From NCBI GenBank assembly GCA_947090545.1, contig CAMUPC010000014.1, positions 1-36,344 on the forward strand: DNA of 36,344 nucleotides. The letters are read 5' to 3'. Shown piece after piece: positions 6,921-27,478 of the stretch; position 1 is the first letter of the stretch, and each line of letters starts with the position of its first letter. Both the position numbers and the translations under genes were made by a program. Source of the stretch: an uncultured Eubacterium sp. GTDB taxonomy: Bacteria > Bacillota > Clostridia > Lachnospirales > Lachnospiraceae. Below the pieces are notes generated by a model. The model had not been told where the DNA came from, made no database searches, and saw only the letters and a list, made by a program, of their open reading frames with translations.

Positions 6921-6939
6921 AGCAAGGAGGAAAAGAAGC

Positions 6940-7074: not shown

Positions 7075-7080
7075 TAATAC

Positions 7081-7111
7081 AATCCTGGCTTGCAAGAAGC
7101 CGGGATTTTTT
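7081..7111 (+). terminator. Intrinsic terminator of the first operon
   Basis: A ten-base stem (7082-7091 with 7097-7106, one T-G wobble, GGCTT paired with AAGCC at the top) closes a five-base GCAAG loop, extended by an A-T pair and followed by six T at 7106-7111. It is the textbook form of a Rho-independent terminator and lies just after the small ORF, separating the exporter operon from the GT2 gene at 7229. Confidence 0.88.
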
Positions 7112-7228
7112 AGTTTGCTGAAAATGGACAAATCTACAATTACTTCTTTCAGTGCATATATTCGCGCAAAAATCCATGTAATAATTACTTTCGGTATGGA
7201 TACAAAAGCACTGATACGGGGGATCGGT

Positions 7229-9224: not shown

Positions 9225-9235
9225 GAGTGAGACAA

Positions 9236-10402: not shown

Positions 10403-10447
10403 ATTTTAAATAAAAAAGCAATGAGAAGAAACGCAGAGGTATTTTAT

Positions 10448-11383: not shown

Positions 11384-11415
11384 GCAGCTATTGATAAGGA
11401 GATTGGAATATTATT

Positions 11416-14259
11416 ATGCCAAAAAAGAACAAAGTTTTATCAATATTATGTATTATGGCAATAGGCGTGCTGTTGTCTGGTTATTTTTACAGCCAGCTAA
11501 TCGGCACAGAGGTTCCGATTCATTCTGATGATGCGGGTACGGCAACAGATATGCGGGATGTTATAGAAATGGGAACTGCTGGATGGAAGTATTGGATAAG
11601 GCCGTTGACAATGTTGAATCGATTGGTGTATATGCTGGCTGGGCCGAGTGAATTATTTTTGCAGGTTTTTTTTGCGCTTAAATATGGTATCTGCATTTCT
11701 TTGACCTTATATCTGGCTTTGTATTTCAAAAAAAAATTTATGTGGTGGCTACTGCCTTTTTTTATTTTCTTTTGTCTGCCGGGCAATTTCGGGACAGCGA
11801 GCATTCAGCCGTTAAAGTTTCATGTATGGACGCAAATGGTTCCGCTGATTTGTCTGGTATATATATTGGCAAAAGGAAATGATCTTCACCTTTTAAAGAA
11901 AAAAGATTTTTTGATGATTTTTTGCCTTTCTGTTTTTGGGCTTATTGAAAGGGATATTTTAGTTGTTGTAACTTGTTGGCTTCCATTGCTTTTATACGCT
12001 GTGATTTATGTATGGCAGAAAGGGGCGATAAAATGGTACAGAAATTGTATTCTTGCTTTCAGTATGCTGGCGCTTTTGTTCGGAAAAGCTTTTTTTTCTA
12101 ATATAGAATACCAAGGCTATGGAGCAAGCCGGTTTATTGGCATCGAAGATTTGGGAAATAATCTTGTGGTAGGAATCACAGGATTTTTATCAATGTTTAA
12201 TATAGATCTGATCGGAAGTAATGTATTGCAGTTTCAGACAATTATTTGCGGAATACGGCTTTTGGTGCTTGGCTATGCGCTTTGGTGCGTGGCAGACATG
12301 ATCCGTGGCATATTTGTGTCGAAGATAGAAAATGTTGATATGGTAAATGCTATACTCGCTATAAGTGTTGTGGTTTTATTAGTGGTATATCTTTTTGGAG
12401 GGATGCGGGAGGACGCAATATCGATTCGCTATATGGCGTATTCCTATTATGCCCTTTTGGTAGTGTCATGCAGAAAAGCTTGTGAACGATGGGATCAAGA
12501 ACAATTTCTGATTGGAAGGAATCGATATCGTGTGAATGTGTTATCCTGCTTTTTTGTAATATGTATCGCTGTAACGATGAATAGAGTTTCCTTTCAAAGA
12601 GAAGAAAATGACGCAGACCGTCTGGCAGAACAAATACAAAAAATGGATCATATAGAATGCGGCATGGGTTCTTTCTGGACAGCAGGGGTTACGAGCTGCC
12701 TGACGAATTATGAAACGGAAGTACAGGCTGGTGAGCGAAATCTTCATGGCAGGATTGTTCCGTATTTAAGCAAGTGGGATTCCTATTGCAGCGGAAACCG
12801 ATTTTATAATTTTTTTCTTGAGGATTGTGAACGCGGAGATTTTGGGATTACAGCAAAAAATCTGCTTGATCATTATGGGATCTATCAGGAAAAGTATGAG
12901 CTGGACAATGCAAATGTCTATGTCTATGACTATGACATAAGAACGGCACCTTTGATTATTCACACAGGCAGCAGAGGATATTTTGAAAATTATGATGATC
13001 TGATCATCGAAAATAATTCTATACAATTAAAACAAAATAAGTACATTGAACTGGGAAATTTATATGTGTCAGTTGGAAAAATTCGCATGTCCGTGTACGG
13101 AAAACTTGCAGAAAATGCTTTGGCAGTAGACCTTGGCGAATCTGCCCATATTCAGATGGCAGAAAAGACGAAGAATAAGGCTGTTTATGAAATTACGGCT
13201 GATAAGTTATATGAAAATCTAAAAATAAAGATCTTTAATAAGAGCACCGATGCCTGTGAGATAAAAACGATTACTATGGAACGGCTGCAAAACAGCATAT
13301 CATTGCCAAATGATAAAAAGCAGACATTAGAGCTGATGCCTGGATATTATATTTTTGGAATAGAAGGAGAACAAGTTAAAAATTCAACAATGCTTTTTGA
13401 AGCAAATGGAGAAGAGTGCTATGCAGAAAGGATCAATCATGGAACCAATAAAGTTGCATATGGCATTCAGGTGCCAAAGCAGGAGAAAGTAAACGTTGTG
13501 ATAGAGAAGAAAGGAACGGTCTCAGAAGTATATTATCAAAATGAGATAAGAAGCTCCTTTGACCATCCGAATAAAAAAATCTATACCATTAATGATGGAA
13601 TCCAGGTAAAAAAAGCAACAGGATTATTGTATGGCCCATACGACAGCTTGGAGCCGGGAATCTATGAAGTGGATATTTATGGAAACAATTTGGAAAACGC
13701 AGAGATACGATTTACCTGTGATGGCGGAACGCCACTGGAACATGCGATGCTTATTCAAAAAGATCAGGATCACTTGTTATACAGGATACAACTTGATGAG
13801 AATAAAGAATTGTTTGAAGTACTGATATCAGGCAGTGGCAATAAAGACTGCAAAGTTTATTATTATACATTGACATCCGTGGAAAAAGATTCGCTGAAAA
13901 TGGTAGACCTGATTTATGATTGTTATGATCCCAGCATACATACTTCTTCTGAAAACAAAAAAGAAAATGAAGTTTTGCTGCAAAAAAATGATGTTTGCTA
14001 TGGGCCTTATATCAATCTGCCAGCAGGAAACTATCGGCTTGAATTATTTGGCAGCAATTTGGCAGACGCTGAAGTTGCGGTTACATATCAAAATGGTGAG
14101 CAGACAGTTCATAATTTAAAGAAACATAATCGTACGGCAACAAAATCCGAGATGGAATTTGTATTAGAGGAGTCAGCAGAAAATATCGAAGTAGTGATTC
14201 GGAATAATCAGGATCATGCTGTTTCTATCAAATCTTATAATATTCAATCTTGGGAATAG
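11416..14259 (+). CDS. GT-C-like membrane protein with C-terminal beta-repeat domain
   Basis: A 947-residue protein in two parts. Residues 1 to about 390 are a multi-helix membrane domain with the motif HSDDAG at 36-41 in the first outside loop, as expected for the acidic catalytic site of GT-C glycosyltransferases that use polyprenyl-phosphate sugars. An extracytoplasmic section follows with GMGSFW near 416-421 and ends with YVYDYDI at 502-508. Residues about 530-947 are four related beta-rich units; the last two share YGPYxxLxxGxYxxxxxGxNLxxAE at 739-763 and 862-886. Both this HSD motif and the YVYDYDI region recur in the proteins at 19315 and 23734. Inferred role: transfer of a flipped sugar onto the surface glycan, with a glycan-binding tail. 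It has not been matched to a characterised enzyme. Confidence 0.65.
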   Translation: MPKKNKVLSILCIMAIGVLLSGYFYSQLIGTEVPIHSDDAGTATDMRDVIEMGTAGWKYWIRPLTMLNRLVYMLAGPSELFLQVFFALKYGICISLTLYLALYFKKKFMWWLLPFFIFFCLPGNFGTASIQPLKFHVWTQMVPLICLVYILAKGNDLHLLKKKDFLMIFCLSVFGLIERDILVVVTCWLPLLLYAVIYVWQKGAIKWYRNCILAFSMLALLFGKAFFSNIEYQGYGASRFIGIEDLGNNLVVGITGFLSMFNIDLIGSNVLQFQTIICGIRLLVLGYALWCVADMIRGIFVSKIENVDMVNAILAISVVVLLVVYLFGGMREDAISIRYMAYSYYALLVVSCRKACERWDQEQFLIGRNRYRVNVLSCFFVICIAVTMNRVSFQREENDADRLAEQIQKMDHIECGMGSFWTAGVTSCLTNYETEVQAGERNLHGRIVPYLSKWDSYCSGNRFYNFFLEDCERGDFGITAKNLLDHYGIYQEKYELDNANVYVYDYDIRTAPLIIHTGSRGYFENYDDLIIENNSIQLKQNKYIELGNLYVSVGKIRMSVYGKLAENALAVDLGESAHIQMAEKTKNKAVYEITADKLYENLKIKIFNKSTDACEIKTITMERLQNSISLPNDKKQTLELMPGYYIFGIEGEQVKNSTMLFEANGEECYAERINHGTNKVAYGIQVPKQEKVNVVIEKKGTVSEVYYQNEIRSSFDHPNKKIYTINDGIQVKKATGLLYGPYDSLEPGIYEVDIYGNNLENAEIRFTCDGGTPLEHAMLIQKDQDHLLYRIQLDENKELFEVLISGSGNKDCKVYYYTLTSVEKDSLKMVDLIYDCYDPSIHTSSENKKENEVLLQKNDVCYGPYINLPAGNYRLELFGSNLADAEVAVTYQNGEQTVHNLKKHNRTATKSEMEFVLEESAENIEVVIRNNQDHAVSIKSYNIQSWE

Positions 14260-14277
14260 GTATGTGAGGAACAAGTG

Positions 14278-15207
14278 ATGAAGTTATTAATTACAGGTGG
14301 AATGGGGTATATTGGACAGTATTTGGTTCAGCTTTTTAAAGAATTTGGATATGAGGTTTATTATACCAGCCGCAAGCAAAAGGATATCAATGATGGAAAT
14401 GTACGTTACCTGAATCTGAATGACGAAAATTCTTTTGCGGATTTGTGCAGAGGAATGGATGTGGTCATACATACGGCAACGATGGATGAAAGAAAGATAA
14501 AAGGAAACGAAAAAGCTGCTCTGCTAACAAATGCATATGGTACAAGACAACTGTACTTGGATGCAGTAAATTGCAAAGTAAAAAAATTTATCTATTTTTC
14601 TACGTTTCATGTATACGGATGCCAGAATGGAACAATAGATGAACATACAGTTCCCAATCCAGTCAGTGACTATGGGCTGACTCATTACTTTGCGGAACAG
14701 TATTTGCGGCAGTTGTCCAAACAGTCTGAGTGCAGCGTTGATATTATTCGTTTAACAAATGGGGTTGGGATGCCATTAGGAAATATAGACCGATGGTATT
14801 TGGCACTGAATGATTTTTGCAGAGCTGCGTTGGAAAATCAAAGAATACAGATGAAATCAAACGGGCTGTCAATGCGGGATTTTATAGCGATTCAGGATGT
14901 AGTAAACGCGGTAAAGATCTTGATAGAAAGACAAGATACAGGAAAATTTGAAGTATTTAATGTTAGTATGCAGCATTCGGTCAGTATAAAGGAAGCTGCA
15001 AAAATGGTAGCAAATATATATGAAAAAAGATATGAAAAAAAATGTGAACTATTGATTCCAGATTGTACAAAGGATCGGCAGAATACAGCAGGAACATTAA
15101 AAGTAGTTTCAAAAAAGATTCGCGAACTTGGATGGGAGCCAACAGCAACATTAGAAGATACGATCAATGATATTTTTTCGCAGATAGAAAAAACAAATGA
15201 GGAGTAG
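14278..15207 (+). CDS. NAD-dependent epimerase/dehydratase (extended SDR)
   Basis: A 309-residue extended short-chain dehydrogenase acting on a nucleotide-sugar. GTGAGGA at 14264-14270 supports the ATG at 14278 over the GTG three bases earlier. TGGMGYIG at 6-13 is the Rossmann glycine motif. FSTFHVYG near 107-114 contains the usual S/T step. The catalytic tyrosine is Y132 in DYGLTHYFAEQ, where the normally conserved lysine four residues later is histidine (H136). The C-terminal domain has the usual SMRDFIAIQDVV near 200-211. Next to an RmlC-like epimerase and RfbF, it most likely modifies or reduces a CDP-linked sugar. Its product is unknown, and the histidine substitution makes activity assignment less certain. 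Confidence 0.78.
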   Translation: MKLLITGGMGYIGQYLVQLFKEFGYEVYYTSRKQKDINDGNVRYLNLNDENSFADLCRGMDVVIHTATMDERKIKGNEKAALLTNAYGTRQLYLDAVNCKVKKFIYFSTFHVYGCQNGTIDEHTVPNPVSDYGLTHYFAEQYLRQLSKQSECSVDIIRLTNGVGMPLGNIDRWYLALNDFCRAALENQRIQMKSNGLSMRDFIAIQDVVNAVKILIERQDTGKFEVFNVSMQHSVSIKEAAKMVANIYEKRYEKKCELLIPDCTKDRQNTAGTLKVVSKKIRELGWEPTATLEDTINDIFSQIEKTNEE

Positions 15208-15211
15208 CACA

Positions 15212-15778
15212 ATGATAAAAAATTTTCAGATTCAAAAGACAGATTTGACGGGCGCAATATTAATCGCACCATTTGTTGCAGAAGATGAACGCGGAAGTTT
15301 TATTAAAGACTATTCCTGTGAGTTATTAGAGCAGCATCATATTTCGCATAACCTGAAAGAAGTATTTTATACAGAATCACATAAAGGTGTCATCAGGGCG
15401 ATTCATTTTCAGAGGGTAAAAGAACAGGCAAAACTTGTCAGGTGCGTATATGGGCATGTATACGATGTTATCGTAGACTTAAGGCCGGAGTCAGATACAT
15501 TTGGCAGATGGCAGGGATTTCATCTAACAGGAAAGAATCATTTAGAGATCTTGGTTCCAGAACATTTTGGGCATGGGTATCTGGTAATACAGGATGCAAT
15601 TGTTTCTTATAAATGTGCCGAAAGATTTTATGGAGAATATGACGATGGGATTCGATGGGATGATACCGATATTGCGGTCAACTGGCCGTTAGAGTTGGTA
15701 GATCATCAAATTATATTGTCAGATAAGGATAAAAAATTGCAGTCGTTTAAAGAATTTCGTCAGAAGTATTGTTGGTAA
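15212..15778 (+). CDS. RmlC/RfbC-like nucleotide-4-keto-sugar 3,5-epimerase
   Basis: A 188-residue cupin of the dTDP-4-dehydrorhamnose 3,5-epimerase family, which inverts carbons 3 and 5 of a 4-keto-6-deoxy nucleotide sugar. The ATG at 15212 is just after AGGAG that overlaps the preceding stop. The core shows EDERGSFIKDY near 24-34, catalytic His65 in IRAIHFQ, YDVIVDLRP near 84-92 and Tyr133 in VSYKC, then GIRWDD near 146-151. Length is normal for the family. Its position between an SDR and RfbF suggests a CDP- rather than dTDP-linked substrate, but that is inference; a dTDP substrate is possible if RmlA and RmlB are encoded elsewhere. Confidence 0.85.
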   Translation: MIKNFQIQKTDLTGAILIAPFVAEDERGSFIKDYSCELLEQHHISHNLKEVFYTESHKGVIRAIHFQRVKEQAKLVRCVYGHVYDVIVDLRPESDTFGRWQGFHLTGKNHLEILVPEHFGHGYLVIQDAIVSYKCAERFYGEYDDGIRWDDTDIAVNWPLELVDHQIILSDKDKKLQSFKEFRQKYCW

Positions 15779-15807
15779 GCATTGTTAGGACCGAGTAGGA
15801 GGTACAT

Positions 15808-16584
15808 ATGAAGGTAGTTTTGCTGGCAGGAGGCTTTGGCACTCGTATTTGTGAAGAAAGCTATTTAAAGCCAAAACCTATGATTGAACTTGGCGGATAT
15901 CCTATTTTATGGCACATCATGAAGTATTATTCATTTTATGGTTATCATGAATTTATTATCTGTGCGGGGTATAAACAGCATGTGATTAAGGAATACTTTG
16001 CCAATTATTATCTTTACAGAAGTGATGTAACTTTTGATTTTGGGTTAAAAAATGAGATGATTATCCATGATAATACGTCTGAGCCATGGAAAGTTACGAT
16101 TGTAGATACCGGATTAAATACAAAGACAGGCGGACGCATTAAAAGAATTCAAAAATATATTGGGGATGAGACATTTTTATTGACATACGGGGATGGAGTA
16201 TGCGATGTCCCGGTAGACCGATTAATTGCATTTCACAAAAACCACGACGGTGTGGTTACGTTAACAGCTATTCAGCCAGGAGGAAGATTTGGAACGCTTG
16301 ACATGCTGGCGAATGGAAAAATTAAGTCGTTTTCAGAAAAAAAGAAAGAGGACGGCGGGTGGATTAATGGTGGCTATATGGTCGTGGAACCTTCTGTTTT
16401 TGATATGATAGACGGAGATGATATTGTCTTTGAACGGGAGCCATTGGAATTATGTGCAGAAAAGAATTTATTAAATGCATATATTCACAACGGTTTTTGG
16501 CAGTGTATGGATACGCTGAGGGATAAAGAACTGCTGGAAAGGCTGATACAGGAACAAAGCGCTCCATGGATAAAATGGCAATAA
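15808..16584 (+). CDS. rfbF: Glucose-1-phosphate cytidylyltransferase
   Basis: A 258-residue nucleotidyltransferase that makes CDP-glucose from CTP and glucose 1-phosphate. It has LAGGFGTR at 6-13 for nucleotide binding, KPKPMIELGG at 21-30 with the activating lysine, FIICAGYKQHVIKEYFANY near 48-66, TYGDG near 126-130 and SEKKKEDGGWINGGY near 176-190, all at the positions usual for RfbF. An AGGAGG ribosome site lies just before the start. CDP-glucose is the entry point to CDP-dideoxy and CDP-6-deoxy sugars, yet the next enzyme of those routes, CDP-glucose 4,6-dehydratase (RfbG), is not in the window. Confidence 0.92.
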   Translation: MKVVLLAGGFGTRICEESYLKPKPMIELGGYPILWHIMKYYSFYGYHEFIICAGYKQHVIKEYFANYYLYRSDVTFDFGLKNEMIIHDNTSEPWKVTIVDTGLNTKTGGRIKRIQKYIGDETFLLTYGDGVCDVPVDRLIAFHKNHDGVVTLTAIQPGGRFGTLDMLANGKIKSFSEKKKEDGGWINGGYMVVEPSVFDMIDGDDIVFEREPLELCAEKNLLNAYIHNGFWQCMDTLRDKELLERLIQEQSAPWIKWQ

Positions 16585-16599
16585 GACGGGAGAGATAGG

Positions 16600-17394
16600 A
16601 TGGATGAGAACGTAACGATATTGATGACTTCGTGTCAGGCATACAGCGATATACTTTATATTCATGACCAGTTATTTCAAAAATATTGGCATGACTGCCC
16701 ATTTAAAAAAATACTTGTGGTAGATAAATATGATCAAAAAGTATTAGGAGAATCCTTTTATGATGAAGTGATCGAAGCTGGGGATGACGCAGAAGGGGAT
16801 TGCAATGGCGTTCGGATTGTGCAAGGGCTCAGGCATATCAAAACACCGTATTTGATTTTGCTACAGGAAGATTTTCTATTATATGACCATGTGGATACAG
16901 CATTGATTCTAAATCTTGTAAAGCTTGCAAAAAAATATCATGCGGGAAATATCAGGTTTACAGTTGATCCCATAACAGAGGATCAATTTTCTGTAAAAGA
17001 AAACCTTCTCGAATATAAACGTGGTATGGCATATCGGTTATCTATGCAGGCAGGATTGTGGAAAACAAAATATTTGTATAAGATGTTCAGCAAATGCAAA
17101 AATGGGAGTGAATTTGAACGAAAAGGTTCGTTTGAGAGCGTCAAATATGAAGAACCAATTTTGGCGTGGGGGGGGGTAGCTTACCCATATATGAATGCCA
17201 TTCAGAAAGGAAAATGGTTGCCGCATTGCGTAAATATTGTTCAATGGAATAAGCTGGCGCCGGATTTTCGCAGACATTCAGTAATGACAAACAAGGACAG
17301 GTTTCTGAATGAATTAAAAGGATATATCTTAAGTATCAATCCGCAGGCTGTAGTGAAAATTCAAAATCTGCTGAATTTTGGCAAAAAGTATTAG
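16600..17394 (+). CDS. GT-A-like putative glycosyltransferase with poly-G tract (ON as read)
   Basis: A 264-residue protein without a family I can name firmly. GGGAG seven bases before the ATG supports the start. The N-terminal half reads like a GT-A domain: an ILMTSCQAYSD strand, an internal repeat of beta-alpha elements, and LLQEDFLL near 87-94 in the place of the metal-binding DxD. It directly follows rfbF, so a CDP-sugar donor is plausible. Codons for W190-G191-G192-V193 are written as nine consecutive G (17168-17176). Loss of one G creates a TAG stop directly after Gly192 and would remove the last 72 residues. As sequenced the gene is full length. Confidence 0.6.
   Translation: MDENVTILMTSCQAYSDILYIHDQLFQKYWHDCPFKKILVVDKYDQKVLGESFYDEVIEAGDDAEGDCNGVRIVQGLRHIKTPYLILLQEDFLLYDHVDTALILNLVKLAKKYHAGNIRFTVDPITEDQFSVKENLLEYKRGMAYRLSMQAGLWKTKYLYKMFSKCKNGSEFERKGSFESVKYEEPILAWGGVAYPYMNAIQKGKWLPHCVNIVQWNKLAPDFRRHSVMTNKDRFLNELKGYILSINPQAVVKIQNLLNFGKKY
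17168..17176 (+). repeat. Poly-G tract A (9 G), candidate phase switch
   Basis: Nine G inside the 16600-17394 gene, read TGG GGG GGG GTA (Trp-Gly-Gly-Val). At eight G the frame runs straight into TAG. The surrounding 1 kb is AT-rich, so a run this long is not expected from base composition. The state here is ON. Confidence 0.8.
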
Positions 17395-17407
17395 AGGTAT
17401 CAAGCAT

Positions 17408-18391
17408 ATGAAAAAATATCCTACGATTACAGTTGCGCTGCCATGTTACAACAGGGCTGAAAATCTGGAACGGTTTCTAAAAAATATCAGACAGCAGACA
17501 TATCCAAAAGAATGTCTGGAAATTATCATTGCGGATGGATGTTCAACAGACAATACGGTAGATATTGCCAAAAAGTATGGATGTAAAGTTATACAGGATC
17601 AGACGCCGGATATAGAAAAAAGAAGGAAAATTTCATTTGAAGCTGCAAAAGGTGAATATATTTTTATTGTAGATGATGATAATTTTTTTCCGAATCGGGA
17701 CCTATTGCTCCATATGATGGATGCATTATTAGCCGAGGGAGCATATGCAGCCGAATGCGTGTGGCAATTTTACGATAGACAGGATTATCCGATGAACAGG
17801 TATTGTGCACTATTTGGATGTTATGATCCTGCTGCGTATTATCTGCATAGAAATGACCATATGCCCATTATTAGTAAAACATGGACATTAAATGGGACCG
17901 TGATCAAGGAAAATAACGATTTTTTTAAAGTGAGATTCAATCAGGATGAAGTGCCTACTATGGGCGGGCAGGGATTTCTCTGTAAAAAGGAATATCTATC
18001 AAGAGGAGTTTCTAAAGATGTAGTTATGCATATGGATATTTGTGCAAATTTAATTAAAGAAGGAAAAAATGAATTTCTTTTTATGAAGGATTACTTTGGG
18101 CATAATTGTGTAACAAGCAAGAAGCAGCTTATAAAGAAGCTAAGGAGAAATATTAAACGGTATCATAAAGAAAGCAGCCAAAGAACGATGGTTTATGAGA
18201 TGGATAAATTAAAGATGATTCGGCTTGGGCTGGTTATGGGAACCTTTGTGGTACCACTTAAGGATGCCGTAAAAGGATATATGAAATTAGCTGATCCAGC
18301 ATGGCTGATACACCCTGTTTTGTGTTTTCAGGTGGCTTGTTGCTACGCATGGAATACACTATTAAAAGCTGTCAAAAATAATGAGAGGTAG
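17408..18391 (+). CDS. GT2 family glycosyltransferase
   Basis: A 327-residue GT-A fold enzyme. I use the ATG at 17408, nine bases after GAGGT at 17394-17398; the preceding gene stops at 17394. The family start PTITVALPCYNRA is at 5-17, the donor-binding ADGCSTDNT at 42-50, and the metal site is IVDDDN at 87-92. A hydrophobic region near residues 273-325 may be one or two membrane-associated helices. The segment between residues 110 and 170 is rich in aromatic residues. It probably extends the CDP- or amino-sugar-containing side chain, but neither donor nor acceptor can be assigned. Confidence 0.85.
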   Translation: MKKYPTITVALPCYNRAENLERFLKNIRQQTYPKECLEIIIADGCSTDNTVDIAKKYGCKVIQDQTPDIEKRRKISFEAAKGEYIFIVDDDNFFPNRDLLLHMMDALLAEGAYAAECVWQFYDRQDYPMNRYCALFGCYDPAAYYLHRNDHMPIISKTWTLNGTVIKENNDFFKVRFNQDEVPTMGGQGFLCKKEYLSRGVSKDVVMHMDICANLIKEGKNEFLFMKDYFGHNCVTSKKQLIKKLRRNIKRYHKESSQRTMVYEMDKLKMIRLGLVMGTFVVPLKDAVKGYMKLADPAWLIHPVLCFQVACCYAWNTLLKAVKNNER

Positions 18392-18394
18392 ATT

Positions 18395-19282
18395 ATGTTA
18401 GGTGTATTATTAGATCGAATAAGAGGAAATCATGTAGCGAATGAGATTATGACAATGCTTGGAAAGTTAGGGATGGATCGCTTTTTTTATATGCTGTTTT
18501 ATAAATATTTTGAAAAACATCCTTCTGTGGCTATGAGAAACAGTTCTGCCTATTTTAACCGGCATGAGAAAGATATAGAAATGATAAAAGGATGGCTTGC
18601 AGATGAAAAATCAAAAAAAATCTGGGAACAAATGATCGAATTTCGCAAAACTATGAATTATAAATTACATCCTGGAAGAGAATTGCCTCAATATTTTGTA
18701 AAAGAAATTATTCAATTTAACCAAAACGAAAGATTTATAGATTGTGGAGGTTTTGATGGTGCAACGTCTTTAGAATTTATTCATAGCTTGAAAATTTTAG
18801 GGGGGGGGTATGAATCTATCGTTATCTTTGAACCGGATAAATTGAATGTTCGGTTAATTAAAGAAAAAACGACTGATAGAGACCATATTGTGCTCATTGA
18901 AAAAGGGCTTTGGAATAAACATGCAAATATAGGCTTTCGTGGGAGTGGAAATTCATCTTCAAAGGTCATAGAGTTAGATGAGAATTGTACAGATTTTTCA
19001 AGTACAGAGACAATAGAAGTTGTTGCAATGGATGATGTAGCAGAGTGTAAGGATGCAACATTTATTAAAATGGATTTAGAAGGTTCAGAGATGATGGCAT
19101 TGAAAGGCGCAGAAAAAATAATTAAGAGAAATAAACCGAAACTTGCGGTTTGTATCTATCATTCAGATCAAGATATGCTGGAAATCATTCAATACATTCA
19201 TAGTTTGGTGCCGGAATACAAATTGTTTGTGCGTCAACATGCGAACTCTTATAATGAAACAGTTCTGTATGCTGTAGTATAG
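18395..19282 (+). CDS. FkbM family methyltransferase with poly-G tract (ON as read)
   Basis: A 295-residue SAM-dependent O-methyltransferase of the FkbM family, often used to methylate sugar hydroxyls. The AdoMet site is FIDCGGFDGAT at 114-124, followed by IFEPDKLN near 144-151 and the family-typical FIKMDLEGSE near 222-231, then KPKLAVCIYH near 245-254. The N-terminal 100 residues are extra to the core. GAGAGG precedes the ATG. Gly136-Gly137-Gly138 are coded by a nine-G run (18800-18808); at eight G the frame would read about a dozen unrelated residues and stop. The tract is in the loop after the AdoMet-binding motif, so an OFF variant would have no methyltransferase fold. Confidence 0.88.
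   Translation: MLGVLLDRIRGNHVANEIMTMLGKLGMDRFFYMLFYKYFEKHPSVAMRNSSAYFNRHEKDIEMIKGWLADEKSKKIWEQMIEFRKTMNYKLHPGRELPQYFVKEIIQFNQNERFIDCGGFDGATSLEFIHSLKILGGGYESIVIFEPDKLNVRLIKEKTTDRDHIVLIEKGLWNKHANIGFRGSGNSSSKVIELDENCTDFSSTETIEVVAMDDVAECKDATFIKMDLEGSEMMALKGAEKIIKRNKPKLAVCIYHSDQDMLEIIQYIHSLVPEYKLFVRQHANSYNETVLYAVV
18800..18808 (+). repeat. Poly-G tract B (9 G), candidate phase switch
   Basis: Nine G within the first FkbM gene, read TTA GGG GGG GGG TAT. At eight G the downstream frame is GGT ATG AAT and ends at TGA after about a dozen codons. The state here is ON. The position in the fold differs from that of tract D in the other FkbM gene. Confidence 0.8.
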
Positions 19283-19314
19283 GTAGTAAAATAGGTTTCT
19301 ATCATGGAGAAAAA

Positions 19315-20874
19315 ATGAAAAAGAATGTTCAGAAGAAAATCATATCTATATGCCTGTTTATGCTGGTTACAATCCTCGCATATGGATGGCGCTTAGGAAC
19401 AGGCAGGGTGATTCATTCGGATGAATTAAGCGTCGTGTTTGCGGGAAAAGATATGCTAAGCAACGATCCATTTTTAAAAGGCTGGCACATGACTACAGGA
19501 GTATTTCTGCTGCCGACCCTGGAACTGGCAGTGTTGGTAAATATATTTGGTTATTCTGAAACATTGGTATACCTGGCTGCGGGAATCAATTACGCGCTTA
19601 TGGTTTTATCAGGAATATGGATCGTCTGCCTGTATGCAAAAAAGTGGTCAGTAAAAAAAGCAGATAGCTATGCGGCAGCAGCATTGCTGATCTTGCTCGT
19701 ACCAAGATCCGTAACATTGCTGAATGCAGGAACGCATGTGTTAAGCTATGCGGCAGCAATATTGTCGATTCTTTTTACTTACCGATTATCGGAAACCAGT
19801 ACCGGAGCTTGGAAGAATGCAGTCTGGATATTTGTTTTGGGGCTATTGTCAGTGACAAATTCTATGTTTTTGTATACGGCATGTGTTCCTGTTTTGCTTG
19901 TCGGTATCCTATCTTCGTATGAGGACAGAAAGGAACACAAGATTTCGGGGCTTTTGTATTATGGAGCAGCATCCGTTATTTTGTATGCGGTTTTTCAGAA
20001 AGTATGGACGGGCATCCGCGGAGATCGATTGGGCGGGATTGATACGGTCTTTACTTCGAGAGAGGATATTTGGGATCATGTTGTGATTGGAATGTGTAAT
20101 ATTCTCGAAGTATTTGGGATTGATTTCTGGGGAGAGAAAGTGGTTTCTGTCAGTACATGCAGAGCTGGCGCAGGATTTTTAATTTTATCAAAGTTAACGT
20201 ATGAAATCTACAGGTATCTGAAAATAAAAAAGAAACAAGACAGAGAGATTGTCTATTTATTTTTGGCGATGGGAATGGTTAATATAGCGGCATATATATT
20301 TTCGACTGTGCCTGCTTATTCCCCGGATGTGAATTTAATCCAGCCGTTTTTAATCGGTTTCACGCTGGCTGGTATTTTGGCATGGATGTATAATGATCGG
20401 GACAAGGAAGGGCATAGCGGCAGAAAATACAATGAAATTGTTTTGTGTGCGTTGTTTTTGTTTTTGCTTCTGTTTCCGGCTTTTACGTTTCATCAGCCGG
20501 ATAATTCAAACAGGCGCAAGGCGGCTGAGTATTTACAAGAACAGGGATATCAAAAGGGATTTGCCGCTTATTGGGATGCAGCATCTGTGATGTATGCGTC
20601 GAAAGGAAAACTGGAAATAGAGCCAGTGATTGGCCATAATATCGTGGAGGTTACGGAGGATACAAGCCTGGTTGCCTATCGGTGGATGACAAGGAAGGAA
20701 TGGGAACAGCAGGAAGGAAATTTTCTGATTGCTGATACGGAATCGGATATGCAGTATGCAATTAATGAAAACACGATTTTGCAGACATTCGGGCAGTATC
20801 AGGAGAAAAAGCAGTTTGGAGAGATTACGGTATATTTGTGGAATGAAAAGAAAAGACTGCCGGGATATAAGTGA
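19315..20874 (+). CDS. GT-C-like polytopic membrane glycosyltransferase (GtrC-type role)
   Basis: A 519-residue membrane protein with about ten hydrophobic helices between residues 8 and 400 and a soluble outside tail. HSDE at 34-37 in the first outside loop matches the acidic motif of GT-C enzymes and the HSD motifs of the proteins at 11416 and 23734. The tail carries KGFAAYW near 417-423 and ends with a beta-like ITVYLW segment, again shared with those two. It is followed, with a four-base overlap region, by a GtrB-like GT2 and a GtrA flippase, which is the standard three-component glycosylation set. Inferred role: transfers the sugar flipped as undecaprenyl-phosphate sugar to the surface glycan. 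Confidence 0.72.
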   Translation: MKKNVQKKIISICLFMLVTILAYGWRLGTGRVIHSDELSVVFAGKDMLSNDPFLKGWHMTTGVFLLPTLELAVLVNIFGYSETLVYLAAGINYALMVLSGIWIVCLYAKKWSVKKADSYAAAALLILLVPRSVTLLNAGTHVLSYAAAILSILFTYRLSETSTGAWKNAVWIFVLGLLSVTNSMFLYTACVPVLLVGILSSYEDRKEHKISGLLYYGAASVILYAVFQKVWTGIRGDRLGGIDTVFTSREDIWDHVVIGMCNILEVFGIDFWGEKVVSVSTCRAGAGFLILSKLTYEIYRYLKIKKKQDREIVYLFLAMGMVNIAAYIFSTVPAYSPDVNLIQPFLIGFTLAGILAWMYNDRDKEGHSGRKYNEIVLCALFLFLLLFPAFTFHQPDNSNRRKAAEYLQEQGYQKGFAAYWDAASVMYASKGKLEIEPVIGHNIVEVTEDTSLVAYRWMTRKEWEQQEGNFLIADTESDMQYAINENTILQTFGQYQEKKQFGEITVYLWNEKKRLPGYK

Positions 20875-20882
20875 GGACAAGC

Positions 20883-21829
20883 ATGGAGAGAAAATTATCG
20901 ATGGTGATACCATCCTATAACGAAGCAGATTCGCTGTATGAACTATATCAAACAATCTTAAAAAATGCAGACATTTGTATGGACGCGGGTTTGATTTCAG
21001 AGTTTGAACTTATTTTTGCCGACGATGGCTCCACGGATGCGTCGCCTTCTATTATGCGTGAACTTTGCAATCAGGACAGCAGGGTACATATGATAGTACT
21101 GAGAAAAAATTTTGGTAAAGCAGTGGCGTTAAATACGGCGTTTCGGAACGTAACCGGAGATATTATTATTACGATGGATGCGGATTTGCAGGATGATCCT
21201 GCTGAGATCCGGCGGTTTATTTGCAAATTAGATGAAGGCTTTGATCTTGTAAGCGGATGGAAAGTGAACAGGCTTGATCCTCTGGAAAAGCGGATTCCAT
21301 CGAAATTGTTTAACAAAGTAACTGCAAAATTATCTGGGGTAAAGCTGCATGATTTTAACTGCGGATTGAAAGCATATCGGAAGGAAGTTGTGGACAGCCT
21401 GGATATTTACGGAGAGCTTCATAGATATATTCCCGTCTTGGCGTATAGGAATGGATATAAAATCGCGGAGATCCAAGTTCATCACCAGAGAAGAAAATTC
21501 GGCAAGTCAAAATATGGGATGGAACGGTATCTGAGAGGATTTTTTGATTTTCTTTCAGTATTGTTTCTTTCAAAATATGATGATAAACCAATGTATTTTT
21601 TCGGCAGGATTGGGATGGTTTTGTTTGGGACAGGCTTTGTTTTTTGCGCAGCGTTAACATTGGAATGGATGTGGGGGGGGTAATTGGAACACGCCCATTG
21701 CTGATGCTGGGCGTGATGCTGATATTGTTAGGCGTACAGTTTGCTTCGATCGGGCTGATTGGAAATATGCTTGTTGATTTGTCATACCGCAGCAGATATA
21801 CAGAAAACCATGTGAAAGAAAAACGGTAA
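20883..21829 (+). pseudogene. GtrB-like GT2, frame broken at a poly-G tract (OFF as read)
   Basis: As read, translation from the ATG at 20883 (after GTGAGGA) gives 266 residues and stops at 21683. It has the GT2 fold with DADLQDDP at 99-106, a NFGKAVALNTAF loop at 76-87 and a first C-terminal membrane helix, then stops directly after Trp-Gly-Gly in a run of eight G. The missing second helix is present in the other frame: GTRPLLMLGVMLILLG and on to a stop at 21827-21829. Nine G would join the two parts into a 315-residue protein of normal family length. The fold is that of undecaprenyl-phosphate glycosyltransferases such as GtrB and ArnC. It is either a phase-variable gene caught OFF or a sequencing error in the homopolymer; true decay is less likely because the distal part is intact. 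Confidence 0.82.
21673..21680 (+). repeat. Poly-G tract C (8 G), candidate phase switch, OFF
   Basis: Eight G between the two C-terminal membrane helices of the GtrB-like GT2. As read it is TGG GGG GGG TAA. With nine G it reads TGG GGG GGG GTA ATT GGA, restoring the family-typical GTRPLLMLG helix. The Trp-Gly-Gly-Val wording is the same as at tract A. Confidence 0.82.
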
Positions 21830-21837
21830 AAAATATC

Positions 21838-22299
21838 ATGCGGGATGGGATACAGATGAAAGAGGTTTTTAGGAGAATATGCCAACGAGAAATGCTTGCA
21901 TATTGTTTTTGGGGAGCAACAACAACAGCCGTAAACCTTCTGGTTTATATGGGGTTAAAATGTTTGATAGGATATCAATTTGCGAACCTGGCAGCGATTA
22001 TAGCAGGAAAAGCGTATGCTTATATTGTGAATAAAAGGTTTGTGTTTCAAAGTGTTTGTGCAAACTGGAAGGTGCTGCTGCGTGAAATAGGAGCGTTTGT
22101 TTTAACCAGAGGGCTGACAGGAATCATTGATTTTGTGGGCGTGATTCTTTTGGTGGAATGGATGTGTGCAGGGCAAAATACAGCGAAGCTTTTTATGACA
22201 GGGCTGGTGATTATTATAAACTATTTTTTAGGAAAAAAGGTAGTGTTTTTAAACGGGGACAGAGGAAGAAAAGATGGAGTATCATTCAGGAAATTATGA
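21838..22299 (+). CDS. GtrA family membrane protein (undecaprenyl-phosphate-sugar flippase)
   Basis: A 153-residue protein (147 if translation begins at the ATG at 21856, which has a GGGATGGG stretch before it). Four membrane helices and the motif ANLAAIIAGKAYAYIVNKRFVF near 48-69 are characteristic of GtrA, and the YFLGKKVVF end is the usual second copy of the N-K-x-F theme. GtrA proteins flip the polyprenyl-phosphate sugar made by GtrB. Lying directly after the GtrB-like GT2 and close to the GT-C gene at 19315, it completes a three-component set. Its 3' end overlaps the broken methyltransferase-like fragment by 26 bases. Confidence 0.85.
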   Translation: MRDGIQMKEVFRRICQREMLAYCFWGATTTAVNLLVYMGLKCLIGYQFANLAAIIAGKAYAYIVNKRFVFQSVCANWKVLLREIGAFVLTRGLTGIIDFVGVILLVEWMCAGQNTAKLFMTGLVIIINYFLGKKVVFLNGDRGRKDGVSFRKL

Positions 22300-22405
22300 T
22301 AAATATACGTCGGCAAATGTGCTGAAAAAGTTAATGATAGGAAAATTTAATCAAAAGGTGATTGGACAATCATTGGACGTATTACGGGTTTTTAAAATAT
22401 TTTGA
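22274..22405 (+). pseudogene. Truncated start of a class I methyltransferase-like gene
   Basis: A 43-codon open frame with a good AGAGGAAG ribosome site, overlapping the GtrA stop. It begins MEYHSGNYDKYTSANVLKKL, resembling the N-terminus of sugar-cluster SAM methyltransferases (a YDKYxSxN opening), then runs into unrelated residues and a TGA. No AdoMet-binding motif follows. I read it as the surviving 5' end of a gene whose remainder was deleted. The family assignment rests on a short stretch and is tentative. Confidence 0.45.
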
Positions 22406-22557
22406 GAAATTTTGCGGGTGGGGGGATTCATGCGGCTGTACTTTTTCTTATTACAGTGGTTACCTATCTGATGGCATATTTTATGAATCAATATGTTTCT
22501 TATAAAAAAGGAATTTTGACTGCGTCAGAACGCAGTGGGGTGGATATGCAGAGATAG
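22396..22557 (+). pseudogene. Fragment of a hydrophobic protein, possibly GtrA-like
   Basis: An open frame without a plausible start that encodes two hydrophobic stretches, with LITVVTYLMAYFMNQYVSYK near its middle. The MNQYVSYK part resembles the N-K-Y-x-F turn of GtrA proteins. It includes a six-G run at 22420-22425. It looks like the distal piece of a gene joined by deletion to the methyltransferase fragment. Function is not claimed. Confidence 0.35.
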
Positions 22558-22559
22558 CA

Positions 22560-22826
22560 TATCGAGGAGAACGGTTTCTTTGCAGCGTATTATTTTGTTG
22601 TTTATTTTCTTATATCAATAAAGTTTTGATGGTAAAGCTGCTCGATCAGCCGTGGGATAATTATTATGAGACAGTTGGATTTTATGAACAACCAGAGGAT
22701 TCTATGGATGTTATTTTTTTTGGAAGCAGAGTATCCTTTTGTGATATTAATCCAATGGAAATAATTAATGCTTACAGTAAATATGATAGGACGGTAGGAT
22801 GTGCTATAAATTTATGGTATGTGTAA
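22560..22826 (+). pseudogene. Truncated N-terminus of an SGNH/DltD-like protein
   Basis: The frame reads a hydrophobic segment (SVLFCCLFSYINKVLMVKLL) and then a YYETVGFYEQPEDSMDVIFF stretch, GSRVSFCDINP, and stops at 22824-22826. The last parts resemble the start of membrane-anchored SGNH-hydrolase-like proteins, where one expects a catalytic GSS/GDS followed by NP; here serine has become GSR. Only about 80 residues remain of a protein normally over 300. It is most likely a remnant, and its end overlaps the region where the next FkbM gene begins. Confidence 0.45.
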
Positions 22827-22852
22827 CATATCGGATACATGAGGAAAGTTAT

Positions 22853-23691
22853 ATGAAAAAATTTTACAAATTTTTAACCGAATTAAGGCGGAATTATTTT
22901 AAGAACAGGATTTTAAAAAGGTATGCAAATACGCGTAATCCTGAAATCAGGGAGCTTATAGAAACAATCAGAAAAGAGAATGAGTTAAATATTTTTAATT
23001 ATGATTTTTATAACAAATACAAAAACAAAAAGACAGAGGTACAGTATGATGAAGATTCCAAAATGTATTATGTTATAGAAAATGGCCGTCGGCTATATTT
23101 TAAGCGGAGTATGTGTGAAAAGGATGTGATTGAATATTACAGGGGAATTAGCGCAGAACAGGATGAAAAATCCCCTCATAGATATGTTTCGGATTCTGTT
23201 TGCCTAAAACAAGGTGATTGTGTGCTGGATTTGGGAGCAGCGGAAGGAAATTTTGTATTTCAAAATGTGGATAAAATCGCAAAGGCAGTTTTAGTTGAGT
23301 GTGACAAAGAGTGGGTGGAAGCTTTAAAAATGACATTTAAAAATTATAAACATATAAAGATCATAAACCAAAAAGTTTCTGGACATGCCCAAAATGGCTG
23401 TACGACATTGGATGAGTTAGGAGACAGGCATGGAGCGTTTGATTTTATCAAAATGGATCTTGAGGGAATGGAAGCTGCGGTTTTAGGGGGGGGCAGAATA
23501 CATTAAAGCAAAAAAACAAATTGGCTGTTTGTACTTATCATAGACAGAAAGATTTTAGAGATATTTGCAGAATATTAAAAGAGAATGGTTACAGAATATC
23601 GCATTCGGACGGTTTTATGACTGTGTATTACTTTTGGGGATATTGTAAGCCGTATATACGCAGGGGGATTGTCAGGGCTAAGAAGGGTTAG
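22853..23691 (+). pseudogene. FkbM family methyltransferase, frame broken at a poly-G tract (OFF as read)
   Basis: From the ATG at 22853 (AGGAAAG just upstream) the frame gives 217 residues, with VLDLGAAEGNFVFQN at 124-138 as the AdoMet site, a VLVECDKEWVEAL strand, and the FkbM phrase FDFIKMDLEGMEAAVL at 196-211. It then enters an eight-G run and stops after Arg-Ile-His at 23506. With nine G the frame continues QNTLKQKNKLAVCTYHRQKD and stays open to TAG at 23689-23691, giving 279 residues with the family's normal C-terminus. The downstream part is intact, so a reversible slip or a base-count error fits better than decay. It would methylate a surface sugar when ON. Confidence 0.82.
23486..23493 (+). 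repeat. Poly-G tract D (8 G), candidate phase switch, OFF
   Basis: Eight G after Leu211 of the second FkbM gene, read TTA GGG GGG GGC AGA ATA CAT TAA. Nine G restores a 62-codon open tail containing KLAVCTYH, a conserved FkbM strand that matches KLAVCIYH in the intact paralogue at 18395. Confidence 0.82.
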
Positions 23692-23733
23692 GTGTTTGTG
23701 ATAAAAGATTTACAATCGATTTAGGAAGGATTA

Positions 23734-25563
23734 ATGAATACATTCATGAAGGGTATTTTTACAACGATTCTGTTTGCTGTTATTCCAATGCTGCTGGAAG
23801 CGTGTTTGATCTGTAGAAGAAAGATAGGTAAACGCGATAAAGCTATTCGCTGTGTTTTAACTTTGATCATAGTTCATTTTGTTGGAATTATTTTTTTGTT
23901 TTCTTACAAAAATTTGTGGACAGTATATGAATACATTTTAGTATATACGATTGCTTTAATTATAGTCACATTATTAATTTTGCCATTGATTTATATAGAA
24001 TCTATAGATATAGATAAAATATTATTTATCTTTTGTCTGATCATTATATCGGTTGCCGTGTATTCGATTCTAACGTATGGGCAGACAGATATTCATTCAG
24101 ATGTGGCAACAGCTACAAATTTGGCTCAATGCCAGGTTAGAAGCAGAAATATTTTTCCATATACATGGTGTTATGGAAATGGGGAAATATGGGTACTTGG
24201 ATTAAACATATTTGTTATGCCTTTTTCTGTATTCATGCAAAATCAGAGTTTAGCGAGAATGCTTGGTTCTGTACTAATAACGATAGTGGCTTTAACGGCA
24301 ATGTATTATCAAAGCCGAAAAATATTTCGTAATCATTCATGGCTGTTAAGCATACCACTGCTATTGGTTTTCTTGAGTGGTTCTTTGGATGCGGTTTTAT
24401 ATCAGGCTGCTTATATGGGGCAGGTTCTTTGGATTGCGCTAACCTGCACTATGGCAGATATGATGATACATGATAGACAGAAAAAAAACTCTGCTTTTTG
24501 CTTGGCAATATTGTTGATTTTGCTATGCATGGGAAGCATCAGGCAGATTGCGGAAAATACACTGCCTCTATGGGGCGCCTGCATGATTTTTTTATATGTT
24601 CGCAATAAAAATGAAGAAAAGCTGGAGGATTATAAAGAGGATTTCAAACGGGCTGTTTTTTTGTCATTATGGATACTTTTACCCTCATTTATTGGGTTTG
24701 GGATTTATAAAATTCTTTGCATTTCTCGCTCAGTTATTGATACGGGCGAGAATGAGCTACAGTTTGTAATGTCCTTGAGTGAGTGTTGGAACAATATAAT
24801 TGCTGTTTTTATTCATTTTTTTGGAGATTTTGGGTTTGCAGGAGGCGTTAAATTAATTTCCATAGATGGAATTAGAAATTTGATTTTAATAATTTTTTGT
24901 ACATTGATTGTATTTATTGTACCAGTCTTACAGTATAGAAAAATAAAAGAGGAAAATGATCATGTTGTTTTCTTTTATATTTTTGGGTTGCTGCACAATT
25001 TAATTATGTTAGTTGTTGCGATTTTTTGCGGCAAAACAGAAGGAAGATATCTGCTTACCTGTATTTTTGTAAATATTATCATCGCATCACAGTATGTGAC
25101 AAAACATTGGCTGAGAAAAGGTGATTTGCAAAAAAATGTGGTAGCAGCTTGCTTTATAGCAGCATCTTTCATTCAGTGTATTGCATTGTTAAAACAGAGT
25201 GCGGGATGGCAGGAAATTGTAGCAGGACGAAAGGCTTTTTCTCAGGAATTGACGAAACATGATTTGCGAAAAGGATATGCTTCCTATTGGTATGCTTATG
25301 CAAATGAAGTGTATTCGGATATGGAACTGCGAATCGGCGGCATTCATATCAATGAAAATGGTATCGTACCGTATTATTGGCTGGTTGATTCTGATGTATT
25401 TCATGCGGAAGATGAAAATACTTTTTTATTGTTGACCCAGGAAGAAAAAAATGTAATTGATGGTAATATCCAAACGTTATTCGGAAATCCAATAGAAGAG
25501 TTTTCGATTGGAGAGATGTATGTTTATGTTTTTGATTATGACATTATAAAAAATGTAGGTTAA
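23734..25563 (+). CDS. GT-C-like polytopic membrane glycosyltransferase
   Basis: A 609-residue membrane protein starting after AGGAAGGA. Three extra N-terminal helices (about 1-110) precede the shared HSD motif, here DIHSDVATATN at 119-129. Its TAT wording is close to HSDDAGTAT in the 947-residue protein at 11416. About eight more helices follow to residue about 480, then an outside tail with KGYASYWYA near 513-521 and YVYVFDYDI near the C-terminus, both echoed in the two other HSD proteins. It lies directly before the aminotransferase, SMR flippase and GT2 cassette, so it is the natural transferase for the sugar that cassette makes. Specificity is inferred only. Confidence 0.7.
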   Translation: MNTFMKGIFTTILFAVIPMLLEACLICRRKIGKRDKAIRCVLTLIIVHFVGIIFLFSYKNLWTVYEYILVYTIALIIVTLLILPLIYIESIDIDKILFIFCLIIISVAVYSILTYGQTDIHSDVATATNLAQCQVRSRNIFPYTWCYGNGEIWVLGLNIFVMPFSVFMQNQSLARMLGSVLITIVALTAMYYQSRKIFRNHSWLLSIPLLLVFLSGSLDAVLYQAAYMGQVLWIALTCTMADMMIHDRQKKNSAFCLAILLILLCMGSIRQIAENTLPLWGACMIFLYVRNKNEEKLEDYKEDFKRAVFLSLWILLPSFIGFGIYKILCISRSVIDTGENELQFVMSLSECWNNIIAVFIHFFGDFGFAGGVKLISIDGIRNLILIIFCTLIVFIVPVLQYRKIKEENDHVVFFYIFGLLHNLIMLVVAIFCGKTEGRYLLTCIFVNIIIASQYVTKHWLRKGDLQKNVVAACFIAASFIQCIALLKQSAGWQEIVAGRKAFSQELTKHDLRKGYASYWYAYANEVYSDMELRIGGIHINENGIVPYYWLVDSDVFHAEDENTFLLLTQEEKNVIDGNIQTLFGNPIEEFSIGEMYVYVFDYDIIKNVG

Positions 25564-25586
25564 CAATGAATAGACAGGAGAAAATC

Positions 25587-26738
25587 ATGATAAATTTTAA
25601 TGAACCTATTTTTTTAGAAAAAGCGTTAGTGTATGTGCGGGAAGCAATCAGCAATAAAAAACTCAGCGGTGATGGAGAATTTACAAAACGTTGTAACTAT
25701 TGGCTTGCGTGCTGGAGCGGAATAAAAAATGTGTTTCTTACTACGTCATGTACACATGCTACGGAAATGGCGGCAATACTTTCAGAGATTCAGCCAGGAG
25801 ATGAAGTTATTATGCCGTCCTATACTTTTGTATCAACGGCTGACGCGTTTGTATTGCGTGGGGCAAAAGTTAAGTTTGTGGATATTCGCCCTGATACGAT
25901 GAATATAGATGAAAAGTTAATAGAACAGGCTGTTACAGGCCGTACAAAAGCCATTGTACCTGTTCATTATGCAGGTGTTAGCTGTGAAATGGATGCCATT
26001 ATGAGTATAGCTAAAAAATATAACCTGATTGTGATAGAAGATGCGGCGCAGGGGGTAATGAGCACGTATAAAGGACAAGCTTTAGGAGCAATTGGGGATT
26101 ATGGCTGTTACAGTTTTCACGAGACGAAAAACTATAGTATGGGAGAGGGCGGTGCTATCACGGTCAAAGATGAAAGTAAAGTGGAAATGGCAGAGGTTAT
26201 CCGTGAAAAGGGAACGAATAGGAGTAAGTTTTTTCGCGGCCAGATAGATAAATATACATGGGTAGAAGCGGGTTCTTCCTATCTGCCAAGTGAGCTGAAT
26301 GCTGCATATTTATGGGCACAGCTTGAAATAGCAAATGAAATCTTCAATAATCGTATGAAAACATGGAAGATGTATTATGATGGATTGGAGGAACTGTCAA
26401 AGTCAGAAAAGATTGAACTGCCTTATATCCCGAAAGAATGCACGCATAATGCACATATGTTTTATATAAAAACGAAAGATCTCGAAGAACGGACAAAATT
26501 GATTGCATATATGAATTCTAAAGGCATAAGGTTGGTTTTTCATTATGTGCCTCTTCATACAGCTCCGGCTGGAAGAAAGTATGGAGAATTTGTGGGAGCT
26601 GAGAGATATACAACGAAGGAGAGTGAACGAATTGTCCGTCTCCCGATTTATTATGGAATGAAAGAAATTGATACAGAGAGGGTCATAAGCAGTTTGTTTG
26701 ATTTTTATAAAAATGAGCCTGGAACAAAGAAAAGATGA
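25587..26738 (+). CDS. rffA: DegT/DnrJ/EryC1 family sugar aminotransferase (RffA/WecE-like)
   Basis: A 383-residue PLP enzyme, likely dTDP-4-amino-4,6-dideoxygalactose transaminase, which aminates carbon 4 of a dTDP-4-keto-6-deoxyhexose using glutamate. The ATG at 25587 has CAGGAG six bases upstream and is preferred over the ATG at 25566. It shows the opening LSGDGEFTKRC at 26-36, TSCTHATEMAA at 53-63, PSYTFVSTADA at 77-87, IEDAAQGV near 150-157 and the Schiff-base lysine K181 in FHETKNYSMGEGG. The sequence follows RffA closely along its length. The dTDP-glucose pathway enzymes RmlA and RmlB that would feed it are not in the window. Confidence 0.88.
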   Translation: MINFNEPIFLEKALVYVREAISNKKLSGDGEFTKRCNYWLACWSGIKNVFLTTSCTHATEMAAILSEIQPGDEVIMPSYTFVSTADAFVLRGAKVKFVDIRPDTMNIDEKLIEQAVTGRTKAIVPVHYAGVSCEMDAIMSIAKKYNLIVIEDAAQGVMSTYKGQALGAIGDYGCYSFHETKNYSMGEGGAITVKDESKVEMAEVIREKGTNRSKFFRGQIDKYTWVEAGSSYLPSELNAAYLWAQLEIANEIFNNRMKTWKMYYDGLEELSKSEKIELPYIPKECTHNAHMFYIKTKDLEERTKLIAYMNSKGIRLVFHYVPLHTAPAGRKYGEFVGAERYTTKESERIVRLPIYYGMKEIDTERVISSLFDFYKNEPGTKKR

Positions 26739-27136
26739 GTGGCAAAGTGGAGAAAAGCAAAATATCTAAAAGAATAAAAGCCTTTGCAGTGCTGCATTTC
26801 GTATTATTGCTTTATTCGATCGGTGGAATTAGTTCAAAACTGGCAGCGCAGAAACCATTTTTGTCAGCAGAATTTGTATGTTTATATGGAATCGTTCTTC
26901 TTATTTTAGTATTATACGCTTTTTTATGGCAGCAGGTTTTAAAAGAGCTGCCGCTTATTACTGCTTATGCGAATAAGGCGATTACTGTAGTATGGGGTTT
27001 GGCATGGGGAACAATTATTTTTGGAGAACAGATAACACCTTATAAGGCGTTGGGAGTTTTCTTGATTGTTGCAGGGATTTTTCTCGTGGTAAACAGTGAA
27101 GAAGAAAAGAAGGATAAAGAAGATGGCTATACATAA
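26735..27136 (+). CDS. SMR/EamA-type small membrane protein, flippase subunit (ArnE/F-like)
   Basis: A 133-residue protein with four membrane helices and a charged C-terminal tail (KKDKED). The pattern AYANKAITVVWGLAWGTIIFGEQIT near 81-105 is the characteristic helix 3 to 4 region of small multidrug resistance fold proteins. It overlaps the aminotransferase stop as ATGA and the second SMR gene by 14 bases. A pair of such proteins beside an ArnC-like GT2 resembles ArnE and ArnF, which flip undecaprenyl-phosphate aminoarabinose. Here the cargo would be a different amino sugar. Confidence 0.78.
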   Translation: MSGKVEKSKISKRIKAFAVLHFVLLLYSIGGISSKLAAQKPFLSAEFVCLYGIVLLILVLYAFLWQQVLKELPLITAYANKAITVVWGLAWGTIIFGEQITPYKALGVFLIVAGIFLVVNSEEEKKDKEDGYT

Positions 27137-27455
27137 AGTTTTGTTTTTGGTCTCAGTATTTATATCTTCTGTATCTCAGATTATGTTAAAGACGAGTGCA
27201 GATGTACAATATGAAAAAAGAATTTCTGAATATTTGAATGTACGTGTAGTAACTGCGTATATGTTATTCTTTCTTTCTAGTTTTTTAACTATCATAGCTT
27301 ATCAAAAAGTAGCATTATCCACAGGTTCTTTACTGGAAGCGACAGGTTATATTTGGGTAGCGGTGCTGGGACGTATTATTTTAAATGAACCTATAAACAA
27401 GATGAAATGTGCCGGATTAGCGTTGATTTTTTTAGGGATTGTTATTTCCGTATAG
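27123..27455 (+). CDS. SMR-type small membrane protein, second flippase subunit (ArnE/F-like)
   Basis: A 110-residue four-helix protein. The ATG at 27123 follows an AAGAAGGA-like ribosome site inside the end of the previous gene and is preferred to the in-frame ATG at 27096. It shows SSVSQIMLKTSADV near 14-27 and LEATGYIWVAVLGRIILNEPI near 80-100, the SMR fold signature with a conserved glutamate in LNEPI. Together with the preceding protein it should form a heterodimer that moves an undecaprenyl-phosphate sugar across the membrane. Confidence 0.78.
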   Translation: MAIHKVLFLVSVFISSVSQIMLKTSADVQYEKRISEYLNVRVVTAYMLFFLSSFLTIIAYQKVALSTGSLLEATGYIWVAVLGRIILNEPINKMKCAGLALIFLGIVISV

Positions 27456-27478
27456 TCTTTGAAAGGGAATTGGCAGAA

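Follow-up and report, generated by a model that had tools for sequence, protein, structure and literature searches.

Four long runs of guanines lie in four neighbouring genes of a predicted polysaccharide cluster in a 36,344-nt stretch of DNA (hereafter the window; contig C14 of the genome of an uncultured Eubacterium sp. of the Lachnospiraceae), which raises the question whether these runs are slipped-strand switches that turn the genes on and off. The reading we favour, with a probability of roughly 0.84, is that the four tracts are poly-G contingency switches in a surface-glycan cluster and part of a genus-wide set, i.e., a Campylobacter-like phasome in bacteria which keep MutS. The tracts and the genes carrying them are:

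17168..17176, + strand: tract of nine G followed by TA, in frame as read, inside the gene at 16600-17394
18800..18808, + strand: tract of nine G followed by TA, in frame as read, inside the first FkbM gene
21673..21680, + strand: tract of eight G followed by TA, out of frame as read, in the GtrB-like gene
23486..23493, + strand: tract of eight G, out of frame as read, in the second FkbM gene
16600..17394, + strand: gene without family match, 264 aa, reading through its own nine-G tract
18395..19282, + strand: FkbM family methyltransferase gene (first), PF05050 E 3e-11, TIGR01444 above cut-off
20871..21683, + strand: gene of a GtrB-like glycosyltransferase of family 2, PF00535 E 7e-34, ending right after the tract
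22799..23506, + strand: second FkbM gene, PF05050 E 1e-5, ending right after the tract

The G runs of 9, 9, 8 and 8 that a sequence-only reading had claimed at these four sites were confirmed, as was its claim that other long G runs are absent, since the + strand of the window contains no further run of at least seven; a single C7 is located at window position 173, at a distance of about 60 bases from a dispersed-repeat copy. The distribution of run lengths in the window is broken: nine G5 runs, one G6 and no G7 are present, yet there are two G8 and two G9 runs. Markov models of order 1 to 3 predict 0.2 to 0.7 runs of at least eight G in the window, as compared to the four observed. With 42% GC, the window is only moderately AT-rich, which tempers the description given earlier. 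Each tract is situated within a gene whose frame is set by the tract length. The open frames of 16600-17394 and 18395-19282 continue across the tract, and those of 20871-21683 and 22799-23506 meet a stop just past it, the remainder of the protein being encoded in another frame (the last 49 residues in case of the GtrB-like gene, and the C-terminal part in case of the second FkbM gene). These frames agree with the statement that two genes are on and two are off as read; the proposed number of up to 16 states is an upper bound obtained by counting.

Profile searches upheld the labels FkbM, family 2 glycosyltransferase and FkbM for the second, third and fourth gene. Both FkbM genes match PF05050, and only the first passes the TIGR01444 cut-off, the second falling below it because its protein is cut short. 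The GtrB-like assignment relies on PF00535 together with an adjoining GtrA gene (PF04138) at 21838-22299; no NCBIfam equivalog scored above its cut-off. The label “GT-A-like” for the first gene found no support, as searches of Pfam, NCBIfam and PDB sequences at E values up to 1 returned no match, and thus none to a glycosyltransferase family. The genes are embedded in a larger cluster:

381..28459, + strand: polysaccharide cluster around the tracts, defined by profile matches of the part of its genes that was scanned

Its genes code for family 4 and family 2 glycosyltransferases, an ABC-2 exporter, a flippase-like protein, an epimerase, a glucose-1-phosphate cytidylyltransferase, GtrA and an aminotransferase, and the cluster was also described as holding CDP/dTDP-sugar genes. 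Given the exporter, the glycosyltransferases, the flippase-like protein and the CDP/dTDP-sugar genes, the predicted product is likely a surface polysaccharide. The first part of the cluster shares 81% identity over 4.8 kb with a locus of a Eubacteriaceae bacterium (L096), and this homologous stretch contains no G or C run of at least six. An FkbM profile scan of contigs from other genomes yielded six loci, L096 among them, none of which was informative on the tract.

The genome comprises 4.42 Mb in 380 contigs and is 96% complete. It contains 127 G tracts, 34 of exactly eight, 58 of exactly nine, and 35 of at least ten G. To regard all of them as switches was rejected, because 57 are located at the ends of contigs or adjoin a dispersed hairpin repeat, of which the window has two copies:

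about 1-116, - strand: copy of the hairpin repeat, cut by the contig start
35732-35978, + strand: copy of the hairpin repeat, about 245 nt

The repeat starts with GGACGC[T/C]GG, often has a G-rich or poly-G 5' edge, breaks the assembly, and is found at many loci (e.g., L010:1521, L159:7385 and L166:15662). An alignment of 15 copies gave 84 predicted pairs, 25 of them with compensatory changes, and a search of Rfam with seven sources gave no match. Of the tracts, 54 lie no more than 1 kb from a contig end, each with its G strand pointing outward, and four contig-end loci finish in 26 to 45 G, which we take as a sequencing fault. The 57 tracts set aside are 50 contig-end tracts and seven interior ones beside the hairpin repeat; 34 of the 50 were inspected, in 31 loci, and 16 were never fetched. 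The start of the dispersed repeat was found within 60 bases of the tract in 26 of the 31 inspected loci and was absent in five. As locus L039 shares its 60-base context with L038, the pair was counted once, leaving 127 - 50 - 7 - 1 = 69 gene-type tracts for analysis, including four without the repeat at a distance of up to 1 kb from a contig end (L027, L108, L111 and L112).

Counting long G runs genome-wide, as proposed earlier, revealed a clear enrichment, with about 70 gene-type tracts versus about five expected runs of at least eight G in the whole genome, the latter figure being an extrapolation of the G5/G4 ratio. The four-tract set is real, and its scale had been understated, with some 70 tracts in this genome and a feature that extends to the genus. 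A background sample of 400 kb from the same genome, consisting of 20 stretches chosen regardless of tracts, contained on both strands 1033 G4, 146 G5, 8 G6 and 4 G7 runs and one G10; all four G7 runs adjoin the dispersed repeat, and the G10 is the single gene-type tract of the sample. The G run was on the coding strand in 55 of the 69 tracts and the C run in two, and 12 were ambiguous.

For a test of register, the longest left and right frames with at least 40 open codons on each side were considered, for which 46 of the 69 tracts qualified. The two frames join at a tract length divisible by three in 35 of these 46 (chance one third, P = 4e-9), with 11 not fitting; other cut-offs gave 41/57, 40/54 and 29/37. 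Among the 46, 21 are nine-G tracts in frame and eight are eight-G tracts out of frame. The first G falls evenly on the three codon phases (16, 16 and 14), indicating that the register is not an effect of glycine codons. In the sister genome G007, 22 of 24 tracts fit the register; its 45 tracts came from stretches picked around sites of exactly nine G, a choice that favours the length of nine but not the register.

The tract genes largely code for methyltransferases, glycosyltransferases, acyltransferases and other envelope functions. Methyltransf_11 matched 18 of 76 tract-gene pieces (76 scanned of 81 prepared), followed by Glycos_transf_2 (5), FkbM (4), Acyl_transf_3 (3) and MBOAT (2); nucleotide-sugar enzymes, radical-SAM/SPASM proteins and solute-binding proteins occur as well. 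For comparison, 130 random ORFs were drawn from 265 and the first 76 scanned; the 25 families listed for these include no methyltransferase family, the lowest listed count being 2. In G007, where 37 of 40 prepared pieces were scanned, the matches were TupA-like ATP-grasp (4), Acyl_transf_3 (4), GT4 (3), Methyltransf_11 (3), LicD (2) and MBOAT (1). Surface-structure genes are thus over-represented among tract genes.

Two of the window tracts could be followed into sister species, where their length differed in three of three comparisons. The GtrB-like tract has eight G in the window and ten in G004 (82% DNA identity over 3 kb). The second FkbM tract, with the same flanks throughout, has eight G in the window, nine in G006 and twelve in G004. 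Nine further cross-species pairs have their tracts at matching positions, to within one residue, and five of them differ in length: 8/10 twice (two paralogues versus one gene), 8/9 twice, one of these pairs sharing 92% protein identity, 9/10 once, and 9/9 in the remaining four. Since the loci of the other species were fetched by the pattern of exactly nine G, nine is over-represented in these pairs. Homologues of the first two window tracts were not found in the genus at the DNA level. A GtrB homologue of 71% identity in G002 lacks the tract and has the length of the nine-G allele; an origin of the tract by a 9-base insertion is hence unsupported at this site.

These comparisons bear on the view that the two out-of-frame genes are simply decaying and that the tracts are relics without reversible switching. 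A pair of adjacent genes in the window is in fact a deletion relic:

22416..22425, + strand: junction GGGTGGGGGG in a gene relic, the left flank of one tract being joined to the right flank of another

Its intact counterparts are found in G004, where a methyltransferase gene and an MBOAT gene, 206 bases apart, each have an intact tract (L184, reverse strand, 13103 and 13319). This one case suggests that tracts may act as deletion breakpoints. General decay nevertheless appears very unlikely, because the sister-species homologues of both out-of-frame genes are intact save for tract length, those of the second FkbM gene having nine and twelve G, because many tract genes, among them the 21 mentioned above, are in frame, and because the tract is kept although its flanks diverge. 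Similarly improbable is a role in expression, by which slippage of RNA polymerase or of the ribosome would allow an off-length gene to yield some product and changes of the DNA would be secondary. Five tracts just upstream of a start codon (L019, L027, L062, L077 and L081), whose length might tune translation rather than set a frame, could act in this way, but slippage at the level of expression alone leaves the same-site differences in DNA length between sister species unexplained. That the tracts are artefacts of sequencing or assembly, with reads that run out into G past G-rich DNA and with wrongly called tract lengths, is hardly credible: the available part of PMC9187656 describes Illumina reads that change to G downstream of G tracts, and the outward orientation at contig ends and the ends of 26 to 45 G are in line with such a fault, yet the gene-type tracts are contig-interior, lie on the coding strand of narrow gene families in a common register, are met again at these sites in other genomes, which confirms the tracts as such, and are likewise found as exact nine-G tracts in G003, which was assembled in six contigs.

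Phase variation by poly-G slippage is supported by the genome-wide excess, the bias for the coding strand, the shared register and the glycan-gene content, and it also fits the length differences at the same site between sister species. Points counted against a phasome are the assembly in 380 contigs, two-colour or G-tract sequencing faults at contig ends, the 11 of 46 tracts off register, the four of nine pairs with equal length, the presence of MutS, and the first two tracts having no DNA-level homologue in the genus.

The 13 genomes of the genus contain 58 (the genome of the window), 7, 43, 12, 35, 17, 28, 79, 1, 22, 73, 12 and 1 tracts of exactly nine G, as compared to 0 to 10 in 24 other genera of the family and 0 to 8 in 24 other families of the order; tracts at contig ends are included in these numbers. 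A lost mismatch repair was dismissed as the cause, since 12 of the 13 members of the genus, all but G008, have a MutS1-like match (E about 1e-87 or better), and 18 of the 18 genomes searched have a MutS_V match. In other bacteria, the presence of MutS lowers slippage rates. Campylobacter, to our knowledge, lacks MutS. As a separate observation, G008, the member without MutS1-like match, has one tract of exactly nine G but 24 runs of exactly seven G followed by TA, nearly all of them preceded by T, which possibly represent another repeat.

The tracts share a further property. TA directly follows the tract on its 3' side in 49 of the 69 cases, versus 57 of 1187 G4 to G6 runs of the 400 kb sample (P = 5e-42). 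Genus-wide, TA follows 180 of 388 exact nine-G tracts, as compared to 25 of 388 for the mirror pattern; the effect is weaker in G007 (14/45 versus 54/813). In the genome of the window, exactly seven G followed by TA occur twice and exactly nine G followed by TA 28 times. Selection for an immediate stop codon is a weak explanation, as TAA or TAG (26) are hardly more frequent than TAT or TAC (23) among the 69 tracts. As TA appears in every codon phase and with every third base, the preference seems to operate on the DNA itself. Tracts of exactly nine G with TA behind them were present in 21 of 196 genomes spread over the class; the genome of the window ranks first with 28, followed by 13, 10 and 8 in one other genus. 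Of 23 tracts viewed from genomes with this pattern, some are in long open frames and others are not. Other clostridial families have a few such tracts (L209-L228, from G074, G105, G154, G196, G088, G238 and G235), some of which, by eye, are located in acyltransferase-like or secreted-protein reading frames. It is conceivable, albeit rather doubtful, that the tract is a module of about nine G and TA which, in Clostridia with MutS retained, is generated and kept at a length of nine through a specific mechanism or the local DNA context; such a module would sit in any codon phase, almost without seven-G intermediates in the genome of the window, be spread through most of one genus and sparse in other clostridial families, and also serve as a deletion breakpoint.

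In the switching mechanism that we propose, DNA polymerase slippage would add or remove a G; for most tract genes the frame would stay open at multiples of three, and at other lengths translation would stop soon past the tract. We infer that tract lengths change within one population and that truncation inactivates the encoded proteins. If so, a surface polymer would be methylated, acylated and glycosylated differently from cell to cell of that population. As the run length decides whether a gene is readable, many surface features probably switch on and off at random, as is known from some pathogens, and genes for glycans that are taken for broken in assemblies of this kind may merely be in the off state.

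The tracts resemble the Campylobacter phasome in that poly-G runs on the coding strand of surface-structure genes differ in length between homologues (PMC6321876, as far as its accessible part goes). In the same part of that source, Campylobacter tract lengths peak at 9 (53%) and 10 (26%), and 5 to 81 poly-G genes are given per strain; the roughly 70 tracts found here fall among the tract-rich strains, which a clostridial genus would match in tract number, with no known pathogen among the genomes examined. The putative system described here belongs to another phylum than Campylobacter and coexists with MutS; it also shows a strong preference for TA after the tract. In Bifidobacterium breve, G-tract length likewise sets the frame of a surface gene of a Gram-positive gut bacterium, a switch shown by maximum-depth sequencing; according to the available section of that report (PMC9187656), pilus genes are concerned there, in contrast to dozens of glycan genes here. 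The invertible promoters of Clostridioides difficile are another example of phase variation in Clostridia, but involve site-specific inversion, judging from the part of PMC11868660 at hand, rather than homopolymer slippage. Among the papers listed in searches of the open-access literature, none showed poly-G switching in Lachnospiraceae or other Clostridia in its title or at the start of its abstract; an earlier description is possible.

The two loci counted as one in the census (L038 and L039; G000:C12:25639 and 29413) are 3.8 kb apart, are identical over at least 75 bases surrounding the tract, and probably result from a recent duplication of a surface-protein gene.
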